A stretch of DNA of 34,375 nt. Source: a virus. Below the pieces are notes generated by a model, which was not told the origin of the DNA, ran no database searches, and saw nothing but the letters and a program-made list of their open reading frames with translations. This document shows positions 5,360-21,565 of the stretch, piece after piece; position 1 is the first letter of the stretch, and each line of letters opens with the position of its first letter. Where the stretch lies: positions 1-34,375 of IMG/VR virus record IMGVR_UViG_3300045922_001002. The stretch is one strand, 5' to 3'. The position numbers and the translations under genes were made by a program.

Positions 5360-5803
5360 ATGACCGATCGCCTCACCCCGTCAGCACGAAGCGCGCTCAT
5401 GTCGCGCATACGCGGAAAGGACACCGCGCCTGAGCTCTTGGTCCGGCGGCTACTGCACGCGATGGGCTACCGCTTCCGGCTGCATCGCCGCGACCTGCCG
5501 GGGAGGCCGGACATTGTGTTGCCGGGGCGACGAAAGGTGATCGAGGTTCGGGGCTGCTGGTGGCACCGCCATCCCGATCCGGCATGTCCCAACGTGGCGA
5601 CGCCGAAGACGCGGCCCGACTTCTGGGCCGCGAAGTTCGCAGGGAATGTGGAGCGCGATCAGCGCAACGAGGCAGCGCTCGCTGCGCGCGGCTGGGACGT
5701 GCTCGTGATATGGGAGTGCGAGGTCCGGCGAGGCGACGATCTGGCGCCCCGGCTGCGCGCCTTCCTGGGCGAAGTTTGCTATGGCCGGAATCGGCGAGCC
5801 TGA
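5360..5803 (+). CDS. vsr: Very short patch repair (Vsr) mismatch endonuclease
   Basis: A 147-residue Vsr protein, which nicks at T:G mismatches arising from deamination of 5-methylcytosine and so protects methylated sites from mutation. Family signatures are RSALMSRIRGKDTAPE (9-24), LPGRPDIVLPG with the metal-binding Asp 51, GCWWHRH with His 69, TRPDFWAAKFAGNVERD and IWEC near the end. The residue equivalent to His 64 of E. coli Vsr appears to be Arg. ATG 5360 is chosen because family proteins begin just before this motif; the frame is open 17 codons earlier. It is followed 92 bases later by the C5 methyltransferase gene, its usual partner. Confidence 0.93.
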   Translation: MTDRLTPSARSALMSRIRGKDTAPELLVRRLLHAMGYRFRLHRRDLPGRPDIVLPGRRKVIEVRGCWWHRHPDPACPNVATPKTRPDFWAAKFAGNVERDQRNEAALAARGWDVLVIWECEVRRGDDLAPRLRAFLGEVCYGRNRRA

Positions 5804-5855
5804 CGCAACCTCTCGCCTTGCGCCCGGGACGGACATGGGGCACCACCCCGCTTCG

Positions 5856-5876
5856 GGCGCCATCCGTAACGGCGCC
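5856..5876 (+). repeat. Inverted repeat between vsr and the methyltransferase gene
   Basis: GGCGCC at 5856-5861 and again at 5871-5876 can form a 6-bp stem with a 9-base loop, 20 bases before the methyltransferase start. No T-run follows, so a terminator is unlikely. It could be a binding site for autoregulation or simply a chance GC palindrome. Confidence 0.35.
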
Positions 5877-5895
5877 GCGTCGTGGGGAGAGCGGA

Positions 5896-7362
5896 ATGGA
5901 CGCACATGCCGGGACGCTGGTCGCCGATCCCGCCGTGCAGGCGAAGATCGAGCGCCTTGCTCGGGGCACCCGGCCGCGCGTCGTTGATCTCTTCTCCGGA
6001 TGCGGGGGCATCAGCCTCGGCTTCCACAGAGCAGGGTTCAGCATCACCGCGGCGATCGAGTCTGACGAACTTGCGGCGCGCTCCCATGCGCTGAACTTCC
6101 ACCGCGATGATCCAATGTTCGAAGTCCACGCGAAGGCGCGCGACATCACGCGGACCGATCCGGATGCGTTCTGCGCCGAGCTTGGCCTCGGCGGCAGCGA
6201 CGAGGCGGTGGACGTGCTTGTGGGCGGCCCGCCCTGCCAAGCCTACGCGCGCGTGGGCCGTGCCAAGCTGCGCGAGGTCGCGGAGCATCCCGAGGCCTTC
6301 AAGGTGGACCCGCGGGGCAACCTCTACCTGCGCTATCTTGAGTTCGTGCGGCAGATGAAGCCGCTGGCGCTGCTCATGGAGAACGTCCCCGACATTCTGC
6401 ACTACGGCGGCCACAACGTAGTCGAGGAAATGGTCGAGACGCTTGCGACCATGGGCTACGAAGCGCGATACAGCCTCATCAACAGCGTCTTTCATGGCGT
6501 GCCGCAGATGCGCGATCGCGTGTTCCTGGTGGCCTACCGGCGCGAACTTCGCATCCGACCGACCTTCCCAAAGGCGACGCACCACATGAAGCTGCCGCCG
6601 GGCTACGCCGGCACGCGCGCCGTGGCCCTGCGCTATGTGGACCTGCTTGGCGGCGCCGGCTACGTGCAGCCCGACCTGGGCGACGAAAGCCTTCCCGGTC
6701 CCGTCACGGCGCGGGAAGCCATCGACGACCTGCCGCCCATCCTGGGATCGTCGGTGAAGCGTGGGGCGCGCCGCTTCGGCGAGCACACCTGGGTTCCCTA
6801 CCGGAAGACCAACGAGATCAGCGCCTACGCGGCGATGATGCGCCAATGGCCGGGCTTTGTGAGCGACGGCGGGGTGGTGGACCACGCCATCCGCTACCTG
6901 CCGCGCGACGGCGCCATCTTCCGGGCGATGCCGGAGGGCGCGGAGTATCCGGAGGCGCACCGCGTCGCCACGCGCCTTTTCGAGAAGGAGGCGCGGCGCC
7001 GCGGCCTGACGCCCCGGATGAAGGCTTGGGCCGAGATTGAGCGGGAAATGGTGCCGCCGTATCCGGTGGGCACCTTCCCGAACCGCTGGTGGAAGCTGCG
7101 GCGTGACTTCCCCGTCCGTACGCTGATGGCGCACATCGGCAAGGACACGTATTCGCACATCCACTATGACGGCGCGCAGGCGCGGACGATCTCGGTGCGC
7201 GAGGCCGCGCGGTTGCAGAGCTTCCCGGATGCCTTCCGTTTCGAGGGGACGATGAACCCGAGCTTCCGGCAGATCGGGAACGCGGTGCCACCCCTGATGG
7301 CGTTCGCGCTGGCCGAAGTCATGCGCGACGCAATAGCAGGCGCGGTGAAGCGCCTCGCTTGA
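5896..7362 (+). CDS. dcm: DNA (cytosine-5) methyltransferase
   Basis: A 488-residue C5-cytosine methyltransferase that would transfer a methyl group from SAM to cytosine in a specific site. Visible motifs: I (VVDLFSGCGGISLGF, about 29-43), IV with catalytic Cys in VGGPPCQAY (about 114), VI (LLMENV), VIII (QMRDRVFLV), then a long target-recognition region, motif IX (ISVREAARLQSFPD) and motif X (IGNAVPP). It is longer than the smallest family members because of the insert between VIII and IX. ATG 5896 has GGGGAGAGCGG upstream; the 112-codon upstream open frame overlaps vsr out of frame and is discarded. It converges on the DUF3883 endonuclease gene, leaving one base between stops. Target unknown; the symbol is by family. 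Confidence 0.95.
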   Translation: MDAHAGTLVADPAVQAKIERLARGTRPRVVDLFSGCGGISLGFHRAGFSITAAIESDELAARSHALNFHRDDPMFEVHAKARDITRTDPDAFCAELGLGGSDEAVDVLVGGPPCQAYARVGRAKLREVAEHPEAFKVDPRGNLYLRYLEFVRQMKPLALLMENVPDILHYGGHNVVEEMVETLATMGYEARYSLINSVFHGVPQMRDRVFLVAYRRELRIRPTFPKATHHMKLPPGYAGTRAVALRYVDLLGGAGYVQPDLGDESLPGPVTAREAIDDLPPILGSSVKRGARRFGEHTWVPYRKTNEISAYAAMMRQWPGFVSDGGVVDHAIRYLPRDGAIFRAMPEGAEYPEAHRVATRLFEKEARRRGLTPRMKAWAEIEREMVPPYPVGTFPNRWWKLRRDFPVRTLMAHIGKDTYSHIHYDGAQARTISVREAARLQSFPDAFRFEGTMNPSFRQIGNAVPPLMAFALAEVMRDAIAGAVKRLA

Positions 7363-8574: not shown

Positions 8575-9321
8575 TCAGCTTCCGACCTGCCGCCCGAGCC
8601 AGACCACCCTGCCAATGACGTCCACATCGTCGGGGGCCAAGCCGTCGAACGCGGCATAGGCCGCGTTGTCGGAGCGGACGGAAAGGGTCTTGAGAGCGGG
8701 ATGCGCGGTCACGCGCTTGACCTGCAAGCCGCCATCCACACGGATGACGTAGATGCCTTCCCGCGCGGTCGGTCGCCGCTGGTCAAGGTCGATCAGCACC
8801 GTGTCGTCGTGCCGCAACGTTGGCTCCATGCTGTCGCCGTCCACCGTCAGCACGGCGAGCTTGTCCAACGGCGCGCGCGTGATCCGCCGCAGCCAATCCT
8901 CGCGGAAGGCGGTGCGGTGCGAGACACTGTCCGAGCCTTCGATCGGCGCACCCGCGGCGGCGCGCGCCTCGTAGACGGGAAGCAAGACGAACCGCTCACC
9001 GCCGAACTCGACCTCTTCCGATCGCAGGCTTGGCGGGGGCGGGATGGGCTTCCGCGGCACGCTCTGGCCGAGCAGGGCGGCGGCTTCCTCCAAGGTCGCG
9101 GGGACGCCCGCGCCGTCCTCGTGCCCAAAGAGGATGATCTGCCATGACACCTTGAGCGGCCGCGCGAGCATCTTCGCGGCACGCGGTGTGAGTGGACGCC
9201 CGCCGCCTTCATAGGCTCGGTAGGTCGCCTCCGGGATGCCGGCCGCACGCGCGAGCTCGGCCCCTGAGGAGAACCCCCGAAGCTGCCGGAGCGACTTCAA
9301 TCTTTCGGCGGCGGCGTTCAT
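8575..9321 (-). CDS. cI: CI/LexA-type phage repressor (HTH_3 + S24 peptidase)
   Basis: A 248-residue prophage repressor. The N-terminus (7-55) is an XRE-type helix-turn-helix (ELARAAGIPEATYRAYEGGGRPLTPRAAKMLA). The C-terminus is an S24 autoprotease with nucleophile Ser 164 in DGDSMEPTL and general base Lys 202 in LQVKRV. An Ala-Gly pair in the linker (RAAAGAPI, about 123-124) is a plausible self-cleavage site, so induction by RecA after DNA damage is expected. ATG 9321 is chosen because the HTH begins directly after it; the frame is open far upstream but antisense to the cro-side genes. It should bind the pL and pR sites. Confidence 0.93.
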   Translation of the reverse strand: MNAAAERLKSLRQLRGFSSGAELARAAGIPEATYRAYEGGGRPLTPRAAKMLARPLKVSWQIILFGHEDGAGVPATLEEAAALLGQSVPRKPIPPPPSLRSEEVEFGGERFVLLPVYEARAAAGAPIEGSDSVSHRTAFREDWLRRITRAPLDKLAVLTVDGDSMEPTLRHDDTVLIDLDQRRPTAREGIYVIRVDGGLQVKRVTAHPALKTLSVRSDNAAYAAFDGLAPDDVDVIGRVVWLGRQVGS

Positions 9322-9368
9322 GGCGATGCGTTTTGTAGCGCCATGCCGCGCGACGCGCCAGCGCAGAT

Positions 9369-9387
9369 AGGCTTCTACCAAAAGCCT
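9369..9387 (-). repeat. Inverted repeat in the repressor leader
   Basis: AGGCTT at 9369-9374 pairs with AAGCCT at 9382-9387 around a 7-base loop, within the intergenic region between repressor and cro-like gene. It may be an operator or a leader structure of the repressor mRNA. Nearby TTTTGTAGCGC (9331-9341) resembles TTTTGTAACGC inside the pR site (9422-9432) and may be a further operator half. Confidence 0.4.
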
Positions 9388-9402
9388 GCGCTCCGATTCG
9401 CG

Positions 9403-9429
9403 GCGATACATGAAGGATTGATTTTGTAA
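9403..9429 (-). promoter_or_regulatory. Possible repressor-maintenance promoter (pRM-like)
   Basis: On the minus strand TATCGC (9408-9403) resembles the TATCGT -10 elements of the two lytic promoters, and TTACAA (9429-9424) lies 15 bases before it, overlapping the pR spacer. This geometry would let the repressor regulate its own gene while blocking pR. The -35 and its spacing are poor, so this is tentative. Confidence 0.35.
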
Positions 9430-9447
9430 CGCTCGTTCGCGTATCGT
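9418..9447 (+). promoter_or_regulatory. pR-like promoter/operator for the rightward early operon
   Basis: TTGATT (9418-9423) and TATCGT (9442-9447) with an 18-base spacer, the same hexamers and spacing as the pL-like site. Only 7 bases separate the -10 from ATG 9455, so transcription should start at or next to the start codon, giving a leaderless or nearly leaderless cro mRNA. The spacer contains TTTTGTAACGC, a likely repressor recognition element. Confidence 0.75.
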
Positions 9448-9454
9448 TCCCGTC

Positions 9455-9658
9455 ATGCCCGACTGGAACAGCATCATATCGAAGTGGCCGAGCGCGGCGG
9501 CGCTCGCCGACGATCTCGGCATTTCGGTCGTGACGGTGCGCGCCTGGCGCGTGCGCGGCATCCCGGCCCGCCGATGGCCGGAGATCGTCCGGGCCGCGAA
9601 GGCGCGCCGACTGCGCAGCATCACGTTCAAAGCGCTCAGCGCGCTGGCGGTGCGCTGA
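9455..9658 (+). CDS. Cro-like helix-turn-helix regulator
   Basis: A 67-residue protein with a single HTH: SAAALADDLGISVVTVRAWRVRGIPARRWPEIVRAAK. The pattern, including the IPARRW motif after the recognition helix, is that of small Cro-like (carph-isopro type) regulators in alphaproteobacterial phages. It is divergent from the repressor, first behind pR, and its stop overlaps the next start as TGATG. No Shine-Dalgarno is present, in agreement with a leaderless message. Confidence 0.82.
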   Translation: MPDWNSIISKWPSAAALADDLGISVVTVRAWRVRGIPARRWPEIVRAAKARRLRSITFKALSALAVR

Positions 9659-10119
9659 TGCACACGGTCGGGATCGACCCCGGCATCGGCGGGGCCATCG
9701 CGTGGATCGACCCGGATTTCGGCGTCCGCATCCACGACATGCCGGTCATGGGCGCGAAGAGTCTGATCGACGCGCCCGAGCTTGCGCACATCCTCCTGCA
9801 CGCCCAAAGCCGGCTCAAGCCGCTGCACATCGTCATCGAGCGCGCGCAGGCCATGCCGAGACAGGGCATCGCCTCGGCGTTCAACTATGGCCGTGGCTTT
9901 GGGACGATCGAGGGCGTCGTCTTCGCGCTCGGCCTTCCCCACAGCTTCGTCACGCCGGCCGCTTGGAAGCGGGCTGCCGGCCTCGGCTCCGACAAGCGCG
10001 ATGCGATCGCACGCGCCATCCAACTGCGGCCCGATGCCGCGCCCCTCCTTCGCCGCGCGAAGGCCCATGGGCGCGCCGAGGCCCTGCTGATTGCCATCTA
10101 TGGAGCGGGGAAGACGTGA
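9658..10119 (+). CDS. RuvC-like Holliday junction resolvase
   Basis: A 153-residue RNase H-fold nuclease of the RuvC type. Visible acidic and fold motifs: VGIDPGIGGAIAWI (Asp 7 in strand 1), HIVIERAQAMPRQG (Glu 61), TPAAWKRAAGLGSDKRDAI (Lys 113 region) and HGRAEALLIAIYG with Glu 141 where Asp is common. Phage members resolve recombination or replication intermediates before packaging. ATG 9658 is set by the TGATG overlap with the cro-like gene; its 3' end overlaps the exonuclease start as GTGA. Confidence 0.85.
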   Translation: MHTVGIDPGIGGAIAWIDPDFGVRIHDMPVMGAKSLIDAPELAHILLHAQSRLKPLHIVIERAQAMPRQGIASAFNYGRGFGTIEGVVFALGLPHSFVTPAAWKRAAGLGSDKRDAIARAIQLRPDAAPLLRRAKAHGRAEALLIAIYGAGKT

Positions 10120-10877
10120 ACGCATTTGAACGACATGGGCTTGGGCACATTTCGGCCACGAGCCTCAACACCTGGGCGGCGGAACCCGCCTTGTGGGTGA
10201 TGGAGAAGCTGCTCGGGAAGCGCGCCCCGGCCGGTGCCGCCGCTGCGCGCGGGACGGCGGCGGAGGCCGGCGTGGCGCACGGTCTCTTCCAGCCCGAGGC
10301 TGAGGTCGTCGAGTGCCAGACGGCCGCGCTCGCGGCCTTCGACGCGGCGAGCGCCTTCCTCACCGACAGCAACCGCGACAAGGAGCGCGAAGCTGTCCCC
10401 GGCATCGTCGAGGTCGCGCTGCGCGAGCTGCGCCAATACGGGCGGCCCACGCCGGCCGGCATGATGGGCGAGCAGCACAAGGTCGAGGTCCGGCTGCCGG
10501 ATGTTCCCGTGCCGATCATCGGCTACATGGACTTCCTCTTCGCCGATCACGGCATTGTCGTCGATCTCAAGACACAGCTTGCGCTGAGCTCGAAGATCAA
10601 CCCGGCGCATGCGCGGCAGGGTGCGGTCTACATCGCGGGGACCAACCGCGAAATGCGGTTCTGCTACGCCACGCCGAAGAAGTGCGCGGTCTATCGGCTT
10701 GAAGACGCCGACGAGCATCTGGCGGTGCTGCGCGCCATCGCGCTCCGGCTCGAGCGCTTCCTTGCCGTCTCGTCCGATCCGCACGAACTCGCGGGCATCG
10801 TCTGCCCCAATTACGAGGCGTTCTACTGGAACAGCACCGCCGCGCGCTCGATGGGGCGCGAAGTTTTCGGGTTCTGA
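10116..10877 (+). CDS. RecB/Cas4-like PD-(D/E)XK exonuclease
   Basis: A 253-residue protein with a GTG start in GTGA overlap with the resolvase gene. The nuclease core is GEQHKVEVRLPDVPVPIIGYMDF (Glu 119, Asp 139), GIVVDLKTQ (Asp 150, Lys 152) and a downstream HARQGAVYIAG with the Gln typical of RecB motif III. This matches PD-(D/E)XK exonucleases that generate single strands for recombination. The N-terminal ISATSLNTWAAEPALWVMEKL fits the opening of such proteins. A single-strand annealing partner is not obvious; the SSB-like gene at 11341 is the best candidate. Confidence 0.85.
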   Translation: MNAFERHGLGHISATSLNTWAAEPALWVMEKLLGKRAPAGAAAARGTAAEAGVAHGLFQPEAEVVECQTAALAAFDAASAFLTDSNRDKEREAVPGIVEVALRELRQYGRPTPAGMMGEQHKVEVRLPDVPVPIIGYMDFLFADHGIVVDLKTQLALSSKINPAHARQGAVYIAGTNREMRFCYATPKKCAVYRLEDADEHLAVLRAIALRLERFLAVSSDPHELAGIVCPNYEAFYWNSTAARSMGREVFGF

Positions 10878-16388: not shown

Positions 16389-17105
16389 ATGGACGATCCG
16401 GTGAACATGCCGCCGGGCGTGCCGCTTGTGCCGGTCGCCGAGCTTCGGCCCGATCCCGGCAATCCGCGCACCCACGATCCGGCCCAGATCGAGAAGCTCG
16501 CCGCCGCCATCCGCGTGGTCGGATGGACGAACCCGATCCTGGCTGACGATACCGGCCGCATCCTGGCCGGTCACGGACGCCTCATGGCCGCGCGGCTGCT
16601 TGGGTTGGCGGCTGTCCCCGTCCTGCGGCTGCGCGACCTCACCGACGAGCAGAAGGCGCTGATCCTCATCGGCGACAACCGGCTCGCCGAGGACGCGGGG
16701 TGGGACCGCGAGGCCCTGGCCGTGCTGCTGCACGAGCTCGAGGCGAGCGGCGCGGGCCTCGAAGCCACGGGTTTCGGCGACGACGAGATCGAGGCGATCC
16801 TGCGCGAGGCCGCCGGCCCGCAGGACGCCACCCCGGCGGCTGGGGATGGGGCCGCCGGGGAGGGCGCGGCGCCCGCCGCCCCGTCCGGCGCCGGCAGCCT
16901 CGCGGCGCGCTTCGGCATCCCGCCCTTCTCCGTGCTGAACGCGCGGGAAGGCTGGTGGCAGGAGCGCAAGCGGGCGTGGCTTGCGCTCGGCATCCGGAGC
17001 GAGGTCGGCCGTGGGGGCAACCTGCTGAACTTCTCCGAGACGCTGATCGAACCCGACCCGGCGAAGCGGGCCGCCATGCGGGCCGCCCGGGAGGCCGCGG
17101 CGTGA
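16389..17105 (+). CDS. ParB-like nuclease-domain protein of the DNA modification cassette
   Basis: A 238-residue protein with a ParB/sulfiredoxin-fold N-terminus: PVAELRPDPGNPRTHDPAQIEKLAAAI, then ILAGHGRLMAARLLGLAAVPVLRL and IGDNRLAEDAGWDREALA. The C-terminal part holds FGIPPFSVLNAREGWWQERKRAWLALGI, which I recognise from phage proteins where a ParB domain is joined to a DNA methylase. Here the methylase is the next gene, overlapping as GTGA, so the fusion appears split. The partner suggests a role in site selection or base modification. The start is supported only weakly by a G-rich upstream stretch. Confidence 0.85.
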   Translation: MDDPVNMPPGVPLVPVAELRPDPGNPRTHDPAQIEKLAAAIRVVGWTNPILADDTGRILAGHGRLMAARLLGLAAVPVLRLRDLTDEQKALILIGDNRLAEDAGWDREALAVLLHELEASGAGLEATGFGDDEIEAILREAAGPQDATPAAGDGAAGEGAAPAAPSGAGSLAARFGIPPFSVLNAREGWWQERKRAWLALGIRSEVGRGGNLLNFSETLIEPDPAKRAAMRAAREAAA

Positions 17106-17908
17106 CGAACCTGACCTTCGTTGGCGGTGACCGCGATCCGGACGACCTTGATCCTGTCTCGCGCCAAATCCTCGAAGCCGGGCCGGGCACGTCCGTCTTC
17201 GATCCGGTCGTCTGCGAACTCGCCTATCGCTGGTTCTGCCCGCCCGGTGGGACGATCCTCGATCCCTTCGCGGGCGGGTCGGTGCGCGGTGTGGTCGCGT
17301 CCAAGCTCGGCCGGCAGTATGTCGGCATCGAGCTTCGCCCCGAGCAGATCGCGGCGAACCGCGCCCAGGCCGACGACCTTTGTGGCGATCCGATGCCGGT
17401 CTGGATCGAAGGCGACGCGCGGGACGCGGCGCGCCTGGCCCGTGGCGTCGAGGCGGATTTCGTCTTCTCCTGCCCGCCCTACGCCGACCTCGAAGTCTAC
17501 AGCGACGATCCGCGCGACCTCTCGAACATGCCTTATGACGAGTTCCGCGCGGGCCTTGCCGAGGCGGTGCGGCAGGTCGTGGGGATGTTAAGGCCGCACC
17601 GCTTCGCGGCGATGGTCATCGGCGACGTGCGCGGTCCGGACGGCTTCTATCGCGGCCTGCCCTGGCATCTGATCCAGGTCTTCGAGGATGCCGGCGCGCG
17701 GCTGCTGAACGAGTTCATCCTCGTCACCGCGGTCGGTTCGCTGCCGATCCGCGCCGGCCGGGCCTTCGCGGCGACGCGGAAGGCGGGGAAGACTCACCAG
17801 CAGCTTCTCGTCTTCTGCAACGGCGATCCGGCGGAAGCCACGCGCGCGGTGGGCGAGGTCGAGTTCGGCGACGTGGCCGTCGCCGCGGCGGAAGGGGCGC
17901 CCGAGTGA
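17102..17908 (+). CDS. DNA methyltransferase (N4-cytosine/N6-adenine type), ParB-associated
   Basis: A 268-residue SAM-dependent methylase. SAM-binding motif I is GGTILDPFAGGSVRGVVASKLGRQYVGIEL and the catalytic motif IV is DFVFSCPPYADLEVYSDDPRDLSNM. The segment TSVFDPVVCELAYRWFCPPGG and the tail LVTAVGSLPIRAGRAF...GKTHQQLLVFCNGD are typical of the phage methylase group fused to ParB domains. CPPY in place of (D/N/S)PPY suggests an atypical amino-methyltransferase. GTG start overlaps the ParB stop; its stop overlaps the PLP enzyme start, so all three should be made together. The target base is unknown. Confidence 0.88.
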   Translation: MTNLTFVGGDRDPDDLDPVSRQILEAGPGTSVFDPVVCELAYRWFCPPGGTILDPFAGGSVRGVVASKLGRQYVGIELRPEQIAANRAQADDLCGDPMPVWIEGDARDAARLARGVEADFVFSCPPYADLEVYSDDPRDLSNMPYDEFRAGLAEAVRQVVGMLRPHRFAAMVIGDVRGPDGFYRGLPWHLIQVFEDAGARLLNEFILVTAVGSLPIRAGRAFAATRKAGKTHQQLLVFCNGDPAEATRAVGEVEFGDVAVAAAEGAPE

Positions 17909-18624
17909 ACCGGCCGGTGGTCGAGCGGCGCGACGGCATCTTCGTGGTCCGCGATGATCTCTTCCCCGGCGGGACCAAGGCGCGGTTCGTCCCAGAGCTT
18001 TTCCGTGACGTCGAAGAGGTCGTCTATGCGAGCCCGGCCGAGGGCGGCGCGCAGACCGCGCTGGCGACGGTCGCCGCGCGCCTGGGGAAGCGGGCGACGA
18101 TCTTCGTCGCGGCGCGGGCCGAGCGGCATCCCCGGACGGCGCATGCGGCGGCGCTCGGCGCGCGGATCGAGGAAGTCCGGCCCGGCTATCTGGGCGTGGT
18201 GCAGGCTCGCGCGGAAGCCTATTGCGCGGCGACGGGAGCGAAGCCGGCGCCCTTCGGCATGGACATGCCGGGCGCCCTGGCGGCGATCGCGGCGGCGGCA
18301 CGGGCGACCGAGGAGGACCCGGACGAGGTGTGGTGCGCGGCCGGGAGCGGCGTGCTGATGCGCGCCCTGGCCGCGGCGTGGCCCAGGGCGGCGCGCCATG
18401 CGGTGCAGGTCGGCCGGGCGCTCACGCCCGCCGAGGTCGCCGGAGCGCGCATCTGGCCGGCGGGACTGCCGTTCGGGAAGCCGGCGCGGATGCGCCCGCC
18501 CTTCCCGAGCGACCTGCACTATGACGCGAAGGCCTGGGCGCTTTGCGTGGCGAACGCGACGCCAGGGCGCCGCGTTCTCTTCTGGAATGTAGCGGGACCG
18601 CCAGCTAGTCCGGCGCCCCGATGA
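17905..18624 (+). CDS. PLP-dependent fold-type-II enzyme (ACC deaminase/tryptophan synthase beta-like)
   Basis: A 239-residue protein, shorter than the usual 300-400 residues. VVRDDLFPGGTKARF resembles the RDDL..GGNK.RK motif of ACC deaminase and D-cysteine desulfhydrase and supplies the Schiff-base Lys 25. SPAEGGAQTALATVAARLGKRATIFVAA matches the GG.QSNHA segment without the Asn, and CAAGSGVLMRAL (GSG 147-149) fits the phosphate loop. Phage relatives adjacent to DNA methylases end with a D.HYDAK segment, also present here. In this setting it may attach or alter a group on a base instead of doing amino-acid metabolism; that is inference. Its last 20 bases overlap a convergent gene. Confidence 0.78.
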   Translation: MNRPVVERRDGIFVVRDDLFPGGTKARFVPELFRDVEEVVYASPAEGGAQTALATVAARLGKRATIFVAARAERHPRTAHAAALGARIEEVRPGYLGVVQARAEAYCAATGAKPAPFGMDMPGALAAIAAAARATEEDPDEVWCAAGSGVLMRALAAAWPRAARHAVQVGRALTPAEVAGARIWPAGLPFGKPARMRPPFPSDLHYDAKAWALCVANATPGRRVLFWNVAGPPASPAPR

Positions 18625-18984: not shown

Positions 18985-19228
18985 TCTTCTCTTCGCCAAC
19001 AGCCTCGGATCGCCCATCGCAGGAGTTGCTTGCTGACCATGCCCATCATGGTCGGTGAGCATGGCGCCCCGGCCGGTCCGGGGCCGGCGGCTGGCCGGGG
19101 CGCCCCCGCATTCCGCCGCGCCAGCCCCACCGGCCGCGCGCTGGCGCCTTCCGGCCCGCCGCCGCCCCACCCCCAAGCCCCCGGCGCCCCGGCGCCGCTG
19201 GCCTCCGACAGGATCGCCCCACCGCCCC

Positions 19229-19912
19229 ATGGCCAGTCCCGCCGCCCCCGCCGCCGCCCCATGGGCTGCCGGCGCCATCGAGCAGCGCCCGGTCGCGAGC
19301 TTGATTCCGTGCGCGACCAATGCGCGCACCCATCCGCCCGAGCAGCTTCGGCAGCTTGTCGCCGCCATCGCCGAGTATGGCTTCGTCAACCCGGTGATCG
19401 TGGACGAGACTGGCGAGATCATTGCCGGGCACGGCCGCGTCATGGCTGCGAGCGCGATGGGCATGGAGGCGGTGCCCGTCATCGTCCGCGCCGGTCTGAC
19501 CGACGCGCAGAAGCGCGGCCTCCGGCTCGCCGACAACAAGATCGCGCTCAACTCGGGATGGGACGAGGCGCTTCTCGCCCAGGAGCTTCACGCGCTGCGC
19601 GCCGAAGGCGTCGAGGCCATCCTCACCGGCTTCGGCGACGCCGAGATCGACCTTCTCCTGCGCGCCGTCCGCACCGATTTCGACGAAGCGCCATCGCCGG
19701 CTGATGGCACGCCGGCCGAGGCCGATTCTGCGGCGAAGCCCGCTGCGAAGGCCGCTGCCAAGGGCGTGCGGGAGGTTGACGTCTCGGGCAGCCGCTTCTG
19801 GGTTTCGATTGAAGGGCCGTTCGAAGCCCAGGCGGATGTGCTGGCGGCGCTCAAGGGCATCGCCGCCATGCCGGGCGTGAAGGTCGCCTCGTCCCTGCGC
19901 GGCTATGCGTAG
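19229..19912 (+). CDS. Second ParB-like nuclease-domain protein
   Basis: A ParB/sulfiredoxin-fold protein: RPVASLIPCATNARTHPPEQLRQLVAAIAEYGFVNPVIV, EIIAGHGRVMAASAMGMEAVPVIV, RLADNKIALNSGWDEALL. An Ala/Lys-rich linker leads to a short C-terminal domain (REVDVSGSRFWVSIEGPFEAQADVLAALKGIAAM). The start is uncertain: ATG 19229 lacks a clear ribosome site and the frame is open to ATG 19061 or GTG 19055 through a Pro/Arg/Ala-rich stretch that may be disordered or non-coding. Its end overlaps the following methyltransferase-like gene by 8 bases, so this is a second ParB-methylase pair. Confidence 0.82.
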   Translation: MASPAAPAAAPWAAGAIEQRPVASLIPCATNARTHPPEQLRQLVAAIAEYGFVNPVIVDETGEIIAGHGRVMAASAMGMEAVPVIVRAGLTDAQKRGLRLADNKIALNSGWDEALLAQELHALRAEGVEAILTGFGDAEIDLLLRAVRTDFDEAPSPADGTPAEADSAAKPAAKAAAKGVREVDVSGSRFWVSIEGPFEAQADVLAALKGIAAMPGVKVASSLRGYA

Positions 19913-20915
19913 GAGCACCCTTGGCCCGGACATTCACGCCCGGCGCGCGTTCCCGAAGGACAATGACGGGAAGTATCTCGAAGCCAAGGTCGCGCTCCGG
20001 CGCCGCGCGCTGCGCGAGGCCCCGGGCGGCGTGCTGGACTGCTTCGCGGGGCGGGGCGCCCTCTGGCGGATCGTCTGGCACGAGGCGATGCACTACCGCG
20101 GCGTCGAGAAGGACATGCAGAAGGCGCTCGCCCATCCGGGCGTCTGCTTCCACTGCTCCGCGTCGGAAGCCCTTGGCGCGCTCGACCTGGGCGCCTTCAC
20201 CATTTTCGACATGGACGCCTACGGCAGCCCGTGGGCGGAGATCGAGATACTCGCTGCGCGCCGGAAGCTCGCGCCGGGCGAGCGAGTCGCCATCATCATC
20301 ACGGACGGCTCCGTCCGGCGCGCGCTGATGGGGCTGACGAACCATGCCCTCGCGCGCCTGGCTGACGTGCCGCCGGAAGCGCCCGGCGCGCATCATCGCT
20401 GGTCGTTGATCGCGCGCCGCGCTCTCGAAGAGGTCGCGGCGCGGATGGGCGGGCGGCTAATCGCCCTGGACGAAAGCGACGCCCCGCATCAGGGGCGCGG
20501 CATCTGGCACGGGCTGGCGATCCTCGAAGGGCATGTCCCGGTGCAGGACGCCATCGAGAAGGGCGCCGCCCTTGCCGTTCTCGGGCGGGTCGAGGACCCG
20601 GGCCTCGGCGATGGCCTTACCGCCTTCGGCGACGAGCGGGTTGCTCCGGTAGTCGCCCCATTGCTTGTGGAAGAAGGCGACGCCGCCGCGCGCGCAGGCG
20701 TCCCGGACCTCGCGCACCCAGGCGGGGGCGCAGAAGCGGGCGCGAGGGCCGCTTTCGCCCCCGGTGATCACCCAGGCGATGCCGCCGAGATCGACCGGGC
20801 CAAGTCGCCCGATCAGCGGCTCGACGGAGAGGAAGCGGACCCGCGCCGGCATGCGCGCGAGGATGGCGATGCGCTCCGCGACCCGCCTATCCTCGACGGT
20901 GCTGCCGAGCCATAG
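19905..20915 (+). CDS. SAM-dependent methyltransferase-like protein (Trm1-like motif)
   Basis: A Rossmann methyltransferase pattern: GGVLDCFAGRGALWRIVWHEAMHYRGVEKD (motif I and following), VCFHCSASEALGALDLGAFTIFDMDAYGSPWAEIEIL (motif IV region) and LAPGERVAIIITDGS. DMDAYGSPW resembles the D.DPYGSP motif of Trm1 guanine-N2 tRNA methyltransferases. Recognisable domain ends by about 20450. The remaining 460 bases of the frame run antisense to the DUF5131 gene and may be an open frame by GC bias; the true end could not be fixed. The start is set by an 8-base overlap with the ParB-like gene. Substrate (DNA, tRNA or nucleotide) unknown. Confidence 0.65.
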   Translation: MRRSTLGPDIHARRAFPKDNDGKYLEAKVALRRRALREAPGGVLDCFAGRGALWRIVWHEAMHYRGVEKDMQKALAHPGVCFHCSASEALGALDLGAFTIFDMDAYGSPWAEIEILAARRKLAPGERVAIIITDGSVRRALMGLTNHALARLADVPPEAPGAHHRWSLIARRALEEVAARMGGRLIALDESDAPHQGRGIWHGLAILEGHVPVQDAIEKGAALAVLGRVEDPGLGDGLTAFGDERVAPVVAPLLVEEGDAAARAGVPDLAHPGGGAEAGARAAFAPGDHPGDAAEIDRAKSPDQRLDGEEADPRRHAREDGDALRDPPILDGAAEP

Positions 20916-21326
20916 GTTGTCCGGGATCGTCTCGCCCATCCGCGCAAGGATGGGCGCGATGTTCTCGGGGCGCTTCGTCAGCACCTGGAAGCGATGCCGC
21001 GGATTGCGCCGCATGACGGCGAGGGCCTCGGCGCGCCATTCGTCCTCGGCTTTCTCATGCCAGAAGTCGGACATGGAGTTGACGAAGATCAGCGCACGCC
21101 CGGGGATGCGGTCGGGCTTCGCCATCTGGGCATCGCTGGCGCGGTTGATCCGGCCTGTCCATCGGCCCCGATCCGTGGTGCCGGCATAGGCCGGCTGCCC
21201 CATCGCATCGAGGCGGGCCGCCATCCGCATCGCATAGCAGTTCGCGCAGCCGGCGGACTTGATGGAGCACCCGACAAAGGGGTTCCACGTGTGCTCCGTC
21301 CATTCGATCCCGGTCGTGCGGGTCAT
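20457..21326 (-). CDS. Phage Gp37/Gp68 family protein (DUF5131)
   Basis: A 289-residue member of the Gp37/Gp68 (DUF5131) family. Signatures: IEWTEHTWNPFVGCSIKSAGCANCYAMRMA with a CX6CX2C cluster resembling a metal or Fe-S site, VNSMSDFWHEKAEDEW, RFQVLTKRPENI, NLWLGSTVEDRRVAERI, RFLSVEPLIG and WVITGGESGPRARF. The family is common in phages and mobile elements; its reaction is not established to my knowledge. ATG 21326 overlaps the previous stop as ATGA. It is the last gene of the leftward unit starting at 22091. Confidence 0.9.
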   Translation of the reverse strand: MTRTTGIEWTEHTWNPFVGCSIKSAGCANCYAMRMAARLDAMGQPAYAGTTDRGRWTGRINRASDAQMAKPDRIPGRALIFVNSMSDFWHEKAEDEWRAEALAVMRRNPRHRFQVLTKRPENIAPILARMGETIPDNLWLGSTVEDRRVAERIAILARMPARVRFLSVEPLIGRLGPVDLGGIAWVITGGESGPRARFCAPAWVREVRDACARGGVAFFHKQWGDYRSNPLVAEGGKAIAEARVLDPPENGKGGALLDGVLHRDMPFEDRQPVPDAAPLMRGVAFVQGD

Positions 21327-21565
21327 CGTGGCGCCTCCGGATCGAAGACCCACGCGAAGCTGCCGTCCGGCAGCCCGCCGCCGATCATCCGGCCGGTCCA
21401 GCCGAGGCGCGCGGCGAGGGCTTCGGCAGCCGCGCGGTGGTTGCCTTCCACGTCAAGGGCATACTTCCAATTGACGATGATCCGCCCGGCATCGGCCCGC
21501 GCGCTGACGCGCGAGCCCTTGCGGTCGGTCGGCGGGATGAAGCGGGTCTGGATGGCCTGCATCAT
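21323..21565 (-). CDS. Conserved small phage protein, 80 aa
   Basis: Starts at ATG 21563-21565 overlapping the upstream stop as ATGA; the next codon is also ATG. The sequence MQAIQTRFIPPTDRKGSRVSARADAGRIIVNWKYALDVEGNHRAAAEALAARLGW follows a pattern I know from many uncharacterised prophage proteins: a small strand-rich domain followed by a helix. Function unknown. Confidence 0.75.
   Translation of the reverse strand: MMQAIQTRFIPPTDRKGSRVSARADAGRIIVNWKYALDVEGNHRAAAEALAARLGWTGRMIGGGLPDGSFAWVFDPEAPR

Follow-up and report, generated by a model that had tools for sequence, protein, structure and literature searches.

Described phage DNA modification systems that come closest to the three-gene operon studied here (positions 16,389 to 18,624 of IMG/VR virus record IMGVR_UViG_3300045922_001002) include those acting on thymidine. 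In the Vi01-like phages, an enzyme dependent on pyridoxal 5'-phosphate (PLP) and related to the one of this operon is among the gene products to which thymidine (5-hydroxymethyldeoxyuridine, 5-hmdU) modification has been ascribed (PMC6336734). In the Vi01-like 5-aminoethoxymethyldeoxyuridine (5-NeOmdU) system, with aGPT-Pplase and the PLP protein orf00226, and in the operon of alpha-glutamyl/putrescinyl thymine pyrophosphorylase (aGPT) and PLP genes of phage Montesquieu, the PLP gene adjoins that of an enzyme which presumably links an amino-acid group to DNA, as it does here, and the PLP proteins share the motifs GGxKxR, GYxSV, GSG/GSA, Y(D/E)xK and FWIVG with ours. The present type differs in being about 60-190 residues shorter in its PLP protein, in lacking the 5-hmdU pathway and in having as partner a ParB-linked relative of amino-methyltransferases dependent on S-adenosylmethionine (SAM), so that donor and target base must differ from those of the 5-hmdU systems.

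A recent precedent for a DNA methyltransferase relative working with a SAM derivative and a second enzyme is the CmoX/CmoA/CmoY carboxymethylcytosine system of Synechococcus phage S-B43 (PMC12783734). There too a SAM-derived group larger than methyl is moved and then built upon, and ParB genes are often nearby; however, a C5-methyltransferase using carboxy-SAM (Cx-SAM) and an amide ligase are employed, there is no PLP enzyme, and the methyltransferase class is not that of our operon. Fusions of ParB-like domains to methyltransferases are known from phages and unexplained (PMC12704722). Those of PHROG 498, such as phiFL3A gp36 and B054 gp77, have the same transferase family and ParB linker as our operon, but neither a PLP enzyme nor an S-adenosylmethionine decarboxylase (SpeD) was found as partner in the records searched.

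The operon encodes a ParB-like protein, a SAM-dependent transferase and a compact PLP enzyme. It is probable that the PLP enzyme works on a group that the transferase has placed on DNA. The specific form of this proposal, a two-step base hypermodification in which the 3-amino-3-carboxypropyl (acp) group is transferred and then decarboxylated to 3-aminopropyl by the PLP enzyme, would have slightly less than an even chance of being correct. A literature search of partial coverage found no paper on the combination of ParB, transferase and PLP enzyme, and a prior mention is possible.

Identification of the three-gene operon

The window, i.e. the whole analysed stretch of 34,375 nucleotides (positions 1 to 34,375 of the record), is a virus record whose predicted open reading frames (ORFs) were compared with the Pfam and PHROG families. 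The neighbouring ORFs of the trio are all on the + strand and overlap by 4 bp each:

16389..17105, + strand: ParB/sulfiredoxin-like protein, 238 aa (Pfam ParB_N 2.5e-6, over the cut-off; phrog_15396 1.8e-55)
17102..17105, + strand: GTGA overlap of the ParB stop and the transferase start (GTG), seen in the sequence
17102..17908, + strand: SAM-dependent transferase of the N6/N4 amino-methyltransferase type, 268 aa (Pfam N6_N4_Mtase 8e-10; phrog_12517 2e-93; phrog_498 7e-70)
17905..17908, + strand: GTGA overlap of the transferase stop and the PLP enzyme start (GTG), seen in the sequence
17905..18624, + strand: predicted compact fold-type-II PLP enzyme, 239 aa (Pfam PALP 5e-9; phrog_7093; predicted model; conservation)

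The C-terminal tail of the ParB-like protein (residues ~163-204) matches positions 22-63 of phrog_12517, the N-terminal part of the methylase family, and the transferase-family linker FGIPPFSVLNAREGWWQERKRAWLALGIRSE sits at its C-terminal end. ParB and transferase are fused in many relatives, including Vincenzo, phiFL3A, B054, P2559S and others; since the tail belongs to the N-terminal part of the transferase family, the two window genes represent a split form of the common ParB-transferase protein. The ParB domain, the conserved PPFSVL..GWW..RK linker and the CPPYxDLEVYSD transferase that characterize the ParB-methyltransferase family (PHROG 498/12517) are all present.

An original prediction, made from the sequence alone, had described three GTGA-coupled genes for a ParB-fold protein with a methylase-associated tail, an amino-methyltransferase with a CPPY motif and a short fold-type-II PLP enzyme with its lysine in GGTKAR and a GSG loop. 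The ORF coordinates and both overlaps, the ParB_N and tail matches, the N6_N4_Mtase and PHROG matches of the transferase with its motif IV SCPPY, and the PALP match together with the conserved GGTKAR and GSG at the expected places agreed with this description in every part.

Linkage of PLP and transferase genes

Scanning with the window PLP protein yielded 78 loci in viral contigs and 37 in bacterial genomes. The transferase was encoded on the same contig at 77 of the 78 viral loci and within 150 nt at 73 of them, an arrangement far beyond chance; at the single remaining locus the contig begins ~120 nt upstream of the PLP gene. For bacterial genomes, mostly alphaproteobacterial, the transferase was present at 29 of 37 loci, and the other eight carried only incomplete or broken PLP copies. 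No plasmid copies were found.

The placement of the PLP gene varies: it follows the transferase, lies between ParB and transferase, is fused to the transferase C-terminal end (our contig L099) or is inserted inside the transferase (ZS04, R6L, Pam4 and contig L089). These fused and inserted versions from other phages are in line with the statement in the original prediction that similar PLP genes lie beside such methylases or are fused to them. The inserts of ZS04 and Pam4 fall into different clades of the PLP tree and both enter the transferase loop corresponding to window residues 89-99. Because different clades share one insertion loop, two separate insertions are likely, i.e. two phage groups probably acquired the PLP domain at one transferase site independently. 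A target-recognition-domain-like place of the inserted domain was considered and dropped, as helix B and strand 3 flank the loop, which does not adjoin motif IV. The model of a fused protein reached a predicted template modelling score (pTM) of 0.54, its domain geometry was therefore not used, and its fold search was dominated by the PLP domain. In the Erythrobacter phages R6L and ZS04, a gene resembling 3'-phosphoadenosine 5'-phosphosulfate (PAPS) reductase precedes the fused ParB-transferase-PLP gene by a few genes.

From the transferase side, 76 new loci were collected, 41 with a PLP gene and 35 without one nearby. In 23 records lacking a neighbouring PLP gene, including phiFL3A, B054, HCTV-2 and three members of the SpeD group, no PLP gene was found anywhere in the record; several of these are fragments, and the same search recovered the PLP gene in 10 of 10 positive records. 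The expected co-occurrence of PLP enzyme and methylase was thus near absolute when counted from the PLP gene, but did not extend to nearly half of the transferases. The original idea of a base-modifying trio holds in outline, though about half of the related transferases have no PLP gene nearby. The slot beside partnerless transferases is mostly occupied by terminase genes, with a second methyltransferase in a few cases and nothing recurrent. In halovirus HCTV-2 (L088:2239-4467), a second methyltransferase gene of the N6/N4 type follows the ParB-transferase gene, and a methyltransferase-like gene takes this position in a few contigs lacking the PLP gene.

Relationship to the 5-hmdU phages

Mycobacterium phage Vincenzo encodes the same ParB-transferase (gene 1) and PLP partner (gene 2), and genes 1 and 2 of AlanGrant are the same pair. 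Gene 2 of these phages (L086:1406-2275) was deposited as 'nucleoside deaminase' or 'carboxylate deaminase'; its product belongs to the fold-type-II PLP proteins and is a relative of Vi01 orf00226. Vincenzo gp2 had PLP protein matches in 342 phage records, the majority of them Vi01-like, and also matched MONT_41 of Montesquieu, whose gene overlaps the aGPT gene near a thymidylate kinase gene. The Montesquieu protein in turn matched Vi01 orf00226 at 8e-21. In a phylogenetic tree, all phage PLP proteins grouped apart from E. coli CysK, CysM, IlvA, YgeX and DcyD (87/84) on long branches, and Vincenzo gp2 fell with the 5-hmdU PLP proteins (82/86). In a study by Lee et al. from 2021 on pathways of thymidine hypermodification, amino acids appended to 5-hmdU are said to be processed further by PLP-dependent decarboxylases, among others.

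The aGPT gene was found in four of four 5-hmdU phages versus none of 11 transferase-PLP phages; for thymidylate synthase the counts were three of three versus none of 12 transferase phages (one of the 12 partnerless). In the window phage, neither aGPT nor a 5-hmdU gene of the thymidylate synthase type was found. The 5-hmdU pathway and the transferase-PLP setting are so far mutually exclusive. Thymidine (5-hmdU) hypermodification was rejected for the transferase-type phages, given the absence of aGPT and thymidylate synthase.

Predicted structure and active site of the PLP enzyme

The PALP family (PF00291) was matched barely over the cut-off (36.3 bits versus 35; 5e-9), and a search of the PDB with the single PLP sequence returned nothing useful. 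An AlphaFold (AF2) model built with 64 relatives had a predicted local distance difference test score (pLDDT) of 96.3 and a pTM of 0.91. All elements of the fold-type-II architecture were present in it and the lysine was correctly positioned, which is the outcome anticipated for a PLP enzyme in the original prediction. The best solved fold matches were D-cysteine desulfhydrase and 1-aminocyclopropane-1-carboxylate (ACC) deaminase (Z 21-23, root-mean-square deviation (rmsd) 2.4-2.6 A over 231-235 residues); for D-cysteine desulfhydrase 4d9c, 231 of the 239 residues were matched at Z 23.2 and rmsd 2.4 A.

Lys25, the predicted Schiff-base lysine, is present in 127 of the 128 related sequences and falls in a gap in the last one, and the predicted phosphate loop GSG 147-149 is conserved at a level of at least 95%. 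Further residues of note are R16-D17-D18, G23 and Y206-D207-A-K209, and the catalytic residues are retained even in relatives at 23-25% identity. Like D-cysteine desulfhydrase and ACC deaminase, the protein has the whole fold, the lysine, RDD, the GS loop and the Tyr and Lys of YxxK. In the alignment with E. coli DcyD, Arg16-Asp17-Asp18 corresponds to Arg39-Asp40-Asp41, Lys25 to Lys51, Gly147-Ser148 to Gly194-Ser195, Tyr206 to Tyr287 and Lys209 to Lys290. The window protein differs from DcyD in being ~90 residues shorter, in being tied to a DNA transferase and in its substrate residues: the substrate-carboxylate loop Ser78-Asn79-His80 (SNH) is replaced by Gly47-Gly48-Ala49 (GGA), His314-Thr315 of the C-terminal HTGG motif align with Asn228-Val229, and at the position of Thr288, which neighbours the catalytic Tyr, the window protein has Asp207 and several relatives have Glu. 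A genuine D-cysteine desulfhydrase or ACC deaminase was rejected, as neither the SNH loop nor HTGG is conserved. The residue pattern and the model look like those of an enzyme that would bind PLP and be catalytically active on an altered substrate.

These data also bear on the type of reaction. The PLP enzyme might act on the amino-acid group attached by the transferase through elimination, deamination, racemisation or replacement, and the final base would then not be aminopropyl. The closest solved folds are indeed lyases and deaminases, the change of SNH to GGA may accompany a different reaction, and an acidic residue as at Asp207, in place of DcyD Thr288 by the catalytic Tyr, is also known in ACC deaminase. 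Such chemistry is nevertheless considered unlikely, as the related phage enzymes whose chemistry is assigned in the literature are reported to be decarboxylases, and the replacement by SpeD described below likewise points to decarboxylation.

Transferase motifs and the SpeD-linked group

The window transferase is permuted, with motif I (D54PFAGGSVR62G) preceding motif IV (S123CPPY127), also relative to 2zie and CcrM, its closest profile matches. Motif I reads DPFAGG and the profile match is over the cut-off; the first residue of motif IV, a Cys invariant throughout the family, departs from the D/N/S of the N6/N4 (PF01555) pattern. G59 and R62 of motif I do not vary among 53 non-redundant PLP-linked proteins or among 16 homologs without a partner, and no convincing residues separating these two classes were found in the alignment. 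In N6/N4 methyltransferases, the residue aligned with R62 is the second Thr of their GxGTT loop, which is turned towards the methionine end of SAM.

Croceibacter phage P2559S has the same transferase family and a coupled decarboxylase gene, as proposed for the window, but a pyruvoyl S-adenosylmethionine decarboxylase (AdoMetDC) takes the place of the PLP enzyme: its speD gene overlaps the end of the transferase gene. Its SpeD product was shown to be a true AdoMetDC (PMC9992855). No match to spermidine synthase was found in P2559S. The transferases of this group have D(C/T)FAGDTVFG as motif I, with G59 changed to D, R62 to F and P55 also changed. Loss of R62 beside an enzyme that removes the carboxylate of SAM is what a switch of donor to decarboxylated SAM would look like in this one phage group. 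Two scans for further SpeD-linked transferases gave only the P2559S group. In a close relative of P2559S (L171, IMGVR_UViG_3300010935_000116), the SpeD beside the transferase appears shortened, to an 86-aa frame with a profile match only to position 57.

As speD and PLP genes share the slot beside the same transferase, the PLP enzyme could also be a non-homologous stand-in for SpeD that decarboxylates free SAM, after which the transferase would move aminopropyl from decarboxylated SAM to DNA, leading to the same final product. PLP-linked transferases, however, retain G59 and R62, lost only in the SpeD-linked ones, and the PLP kin of Vi01-like phages work in DNA modification pathways, which makes this route quite improbable.

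The large number of homologs without a partner would also fit an ordinary promiscuous A or C methyltransferase protecting the phage DNA, with the PLP enzyme (or SpeD) serving independently in counter-defence, by depleting SAM or clearing inhibitory products. M.BceSVII, a prophage enzyme likewise described as a ParB-methylase, is promiscuous and produces N6-methyladenine (m6A) (PMC3526280), and phage enzymes lowering SAM exist (mentioned in PMC12783734). We regard this explanation as rather improbable, because it does not account for the recurrent fusion at a single transferase site, for the 5-hmdU PLP kinship or for the motif-I change of the SpeD variant.

Finally, the ParB domain could be a SerK-like kinase of free serine, and the PLP enzyme would then join an aminoacrylate derived from O-phosphoserine to a base presented by the transferase domain. 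Some fold-type-II enzymes do use O-phosphoserine. SerK-like proteins share the ParB fold, and some ParB-methyltransferase fusions bind ATP (PMC12704722). This scheme is nonetheless very improbable: the ParB domain is kept in partnerless transferases and so has no special tie to the PLP enzyme, and the SAM site would be left unexplained.

Proposed modification pathway

The preferred pathway of acp transfer followed by decarboxylation draws on what was observed directly: the operon, the predicted fold, the conserved active site, the repeated physical linkage, the kinship with 5-hmdU PLP proteins, the missing 5-hmdU pathway and the replacement by SpeD with its motif change. In 5-hmdU phages, the amino acid on which the PLP enzyme works comes onto the DNA by the aGPT route. 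As this route is missing in the transferase phages, the attachment must fall to a different enzyme, and SAM, the donor used by the transferase fold, bears an amino acid. The acp arm of SAM is known to be transferred to RNA bases by other enzymes. In the first step, the ParB-linked CPPY transferase would bind flipped-out bases and transfer the acp arm, instead of or besides methyl, to an exocyclic amine, which from the fold would be that of A or C. In the second, by homology to the Vi01-like PLP proteins, Lys25 would form an aldimine with the DNA-attached amino-acid group, whose decarboxylation would leave a 3-aminopropyl base. The order would be reversed in P2559S, where SpeD would make decarboxylated SAM and the transferase without the motif-I Arg would move aminopropyl directly. 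The product may shield virion DNA from host nucleases and protect it from restriction. With a somewhat less than even chance of being correct, a widespread phage chemistry can be proposed in which ParB-linked transferases place the amino-acid arm of SAM, instead of its methyl group, on a base and PLP enzymes decarboxylate it on the DNA, the SpeD variant arriving at that aminopropyl base by the reverse order.

Several points weigh against this pathway. The PLP label switches 16 times on the transferase tree; the PLP enzyme is an accessory often gained or lost and not a required second step, and the transferase can exist alone. PLP-linked and partnerless transferases share their motif-I residues, and nothing in the sequences shows transfer of acp over methyl. 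The insertion loop between helix B and strand 3 is at the edge of the Rossmann fold opposite the SAM pocket, and insertion there implies no shared active site. The SpeD evidence comes from one phage group. The branch joining all phage PLP proteins, with its long branches, is moderately and not strongly supported, and a profile of the window type built without Vincenzo gave Vi01 a score of 18 bits, which did not exceed those of E. coli YgeX, DcyD and IlvA, so that the kinship of the window type rests on intermediates. Fold-type-II enzymes are mostly lyases or synthases and rarely decarboxylases.

If the pathway of acp transfer and decarboxylation is correct, a SAM-derived amino-alkyl route would be added to the known phage DNA hypermodifications, the common phage annotation 'threonine dehydratase/ACC deaminase' would be explained, and enzymes placing a primary amine handle on natural DNA would be available. 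The proposal is directly testable in Vincenzo and AlanGrant, which both carry the pair and grow on M. smegmatis mc2 155, a laboratory strain.

Other genes of the window phage

The window encodes a CI-like repressor, primase/helicase, terminase, portal and head genes, from which it can be concluded that it represents a temperate tailed phage. The repressor (CI-like/UmuD-like, phrog_4), encoded at 8575-10125 on the - strand, supports the temperate lifestyle. A C5 cytosine DNA methyltransferase of 600 aa (PF00145, 4e-55) with extra sequence between its conserved parts is encoded at 5560-7362 on the + strand, and the phage therefore has at least two genes of the DNA methyltransferase type.

Downstream of the trio, a second ParB-like gene (19055-19912, + strand; phrog_620, 3e-50) overlaps an ORF of 336 aa (19905-20915, + strand), for which no match was found in Pfam or PHROG. 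By eye, a methyltransferase-like motif I (VLDCFAGRGALW) can be seen in this ORF, as well as DMDAYGSPW, a motif similar to that of Trm1-type tRNA methyltransferases, and 19055-20915 possibly forms a second, different ParB-transferase pair. Facing this ORF and overlapping its end, a DUF5131 protein (PF07505, 7e-82; phrog_2045) with a cysteine-rich CSIKSAGCANCYA stretch is encoded at 20457-21353 on the - strand.

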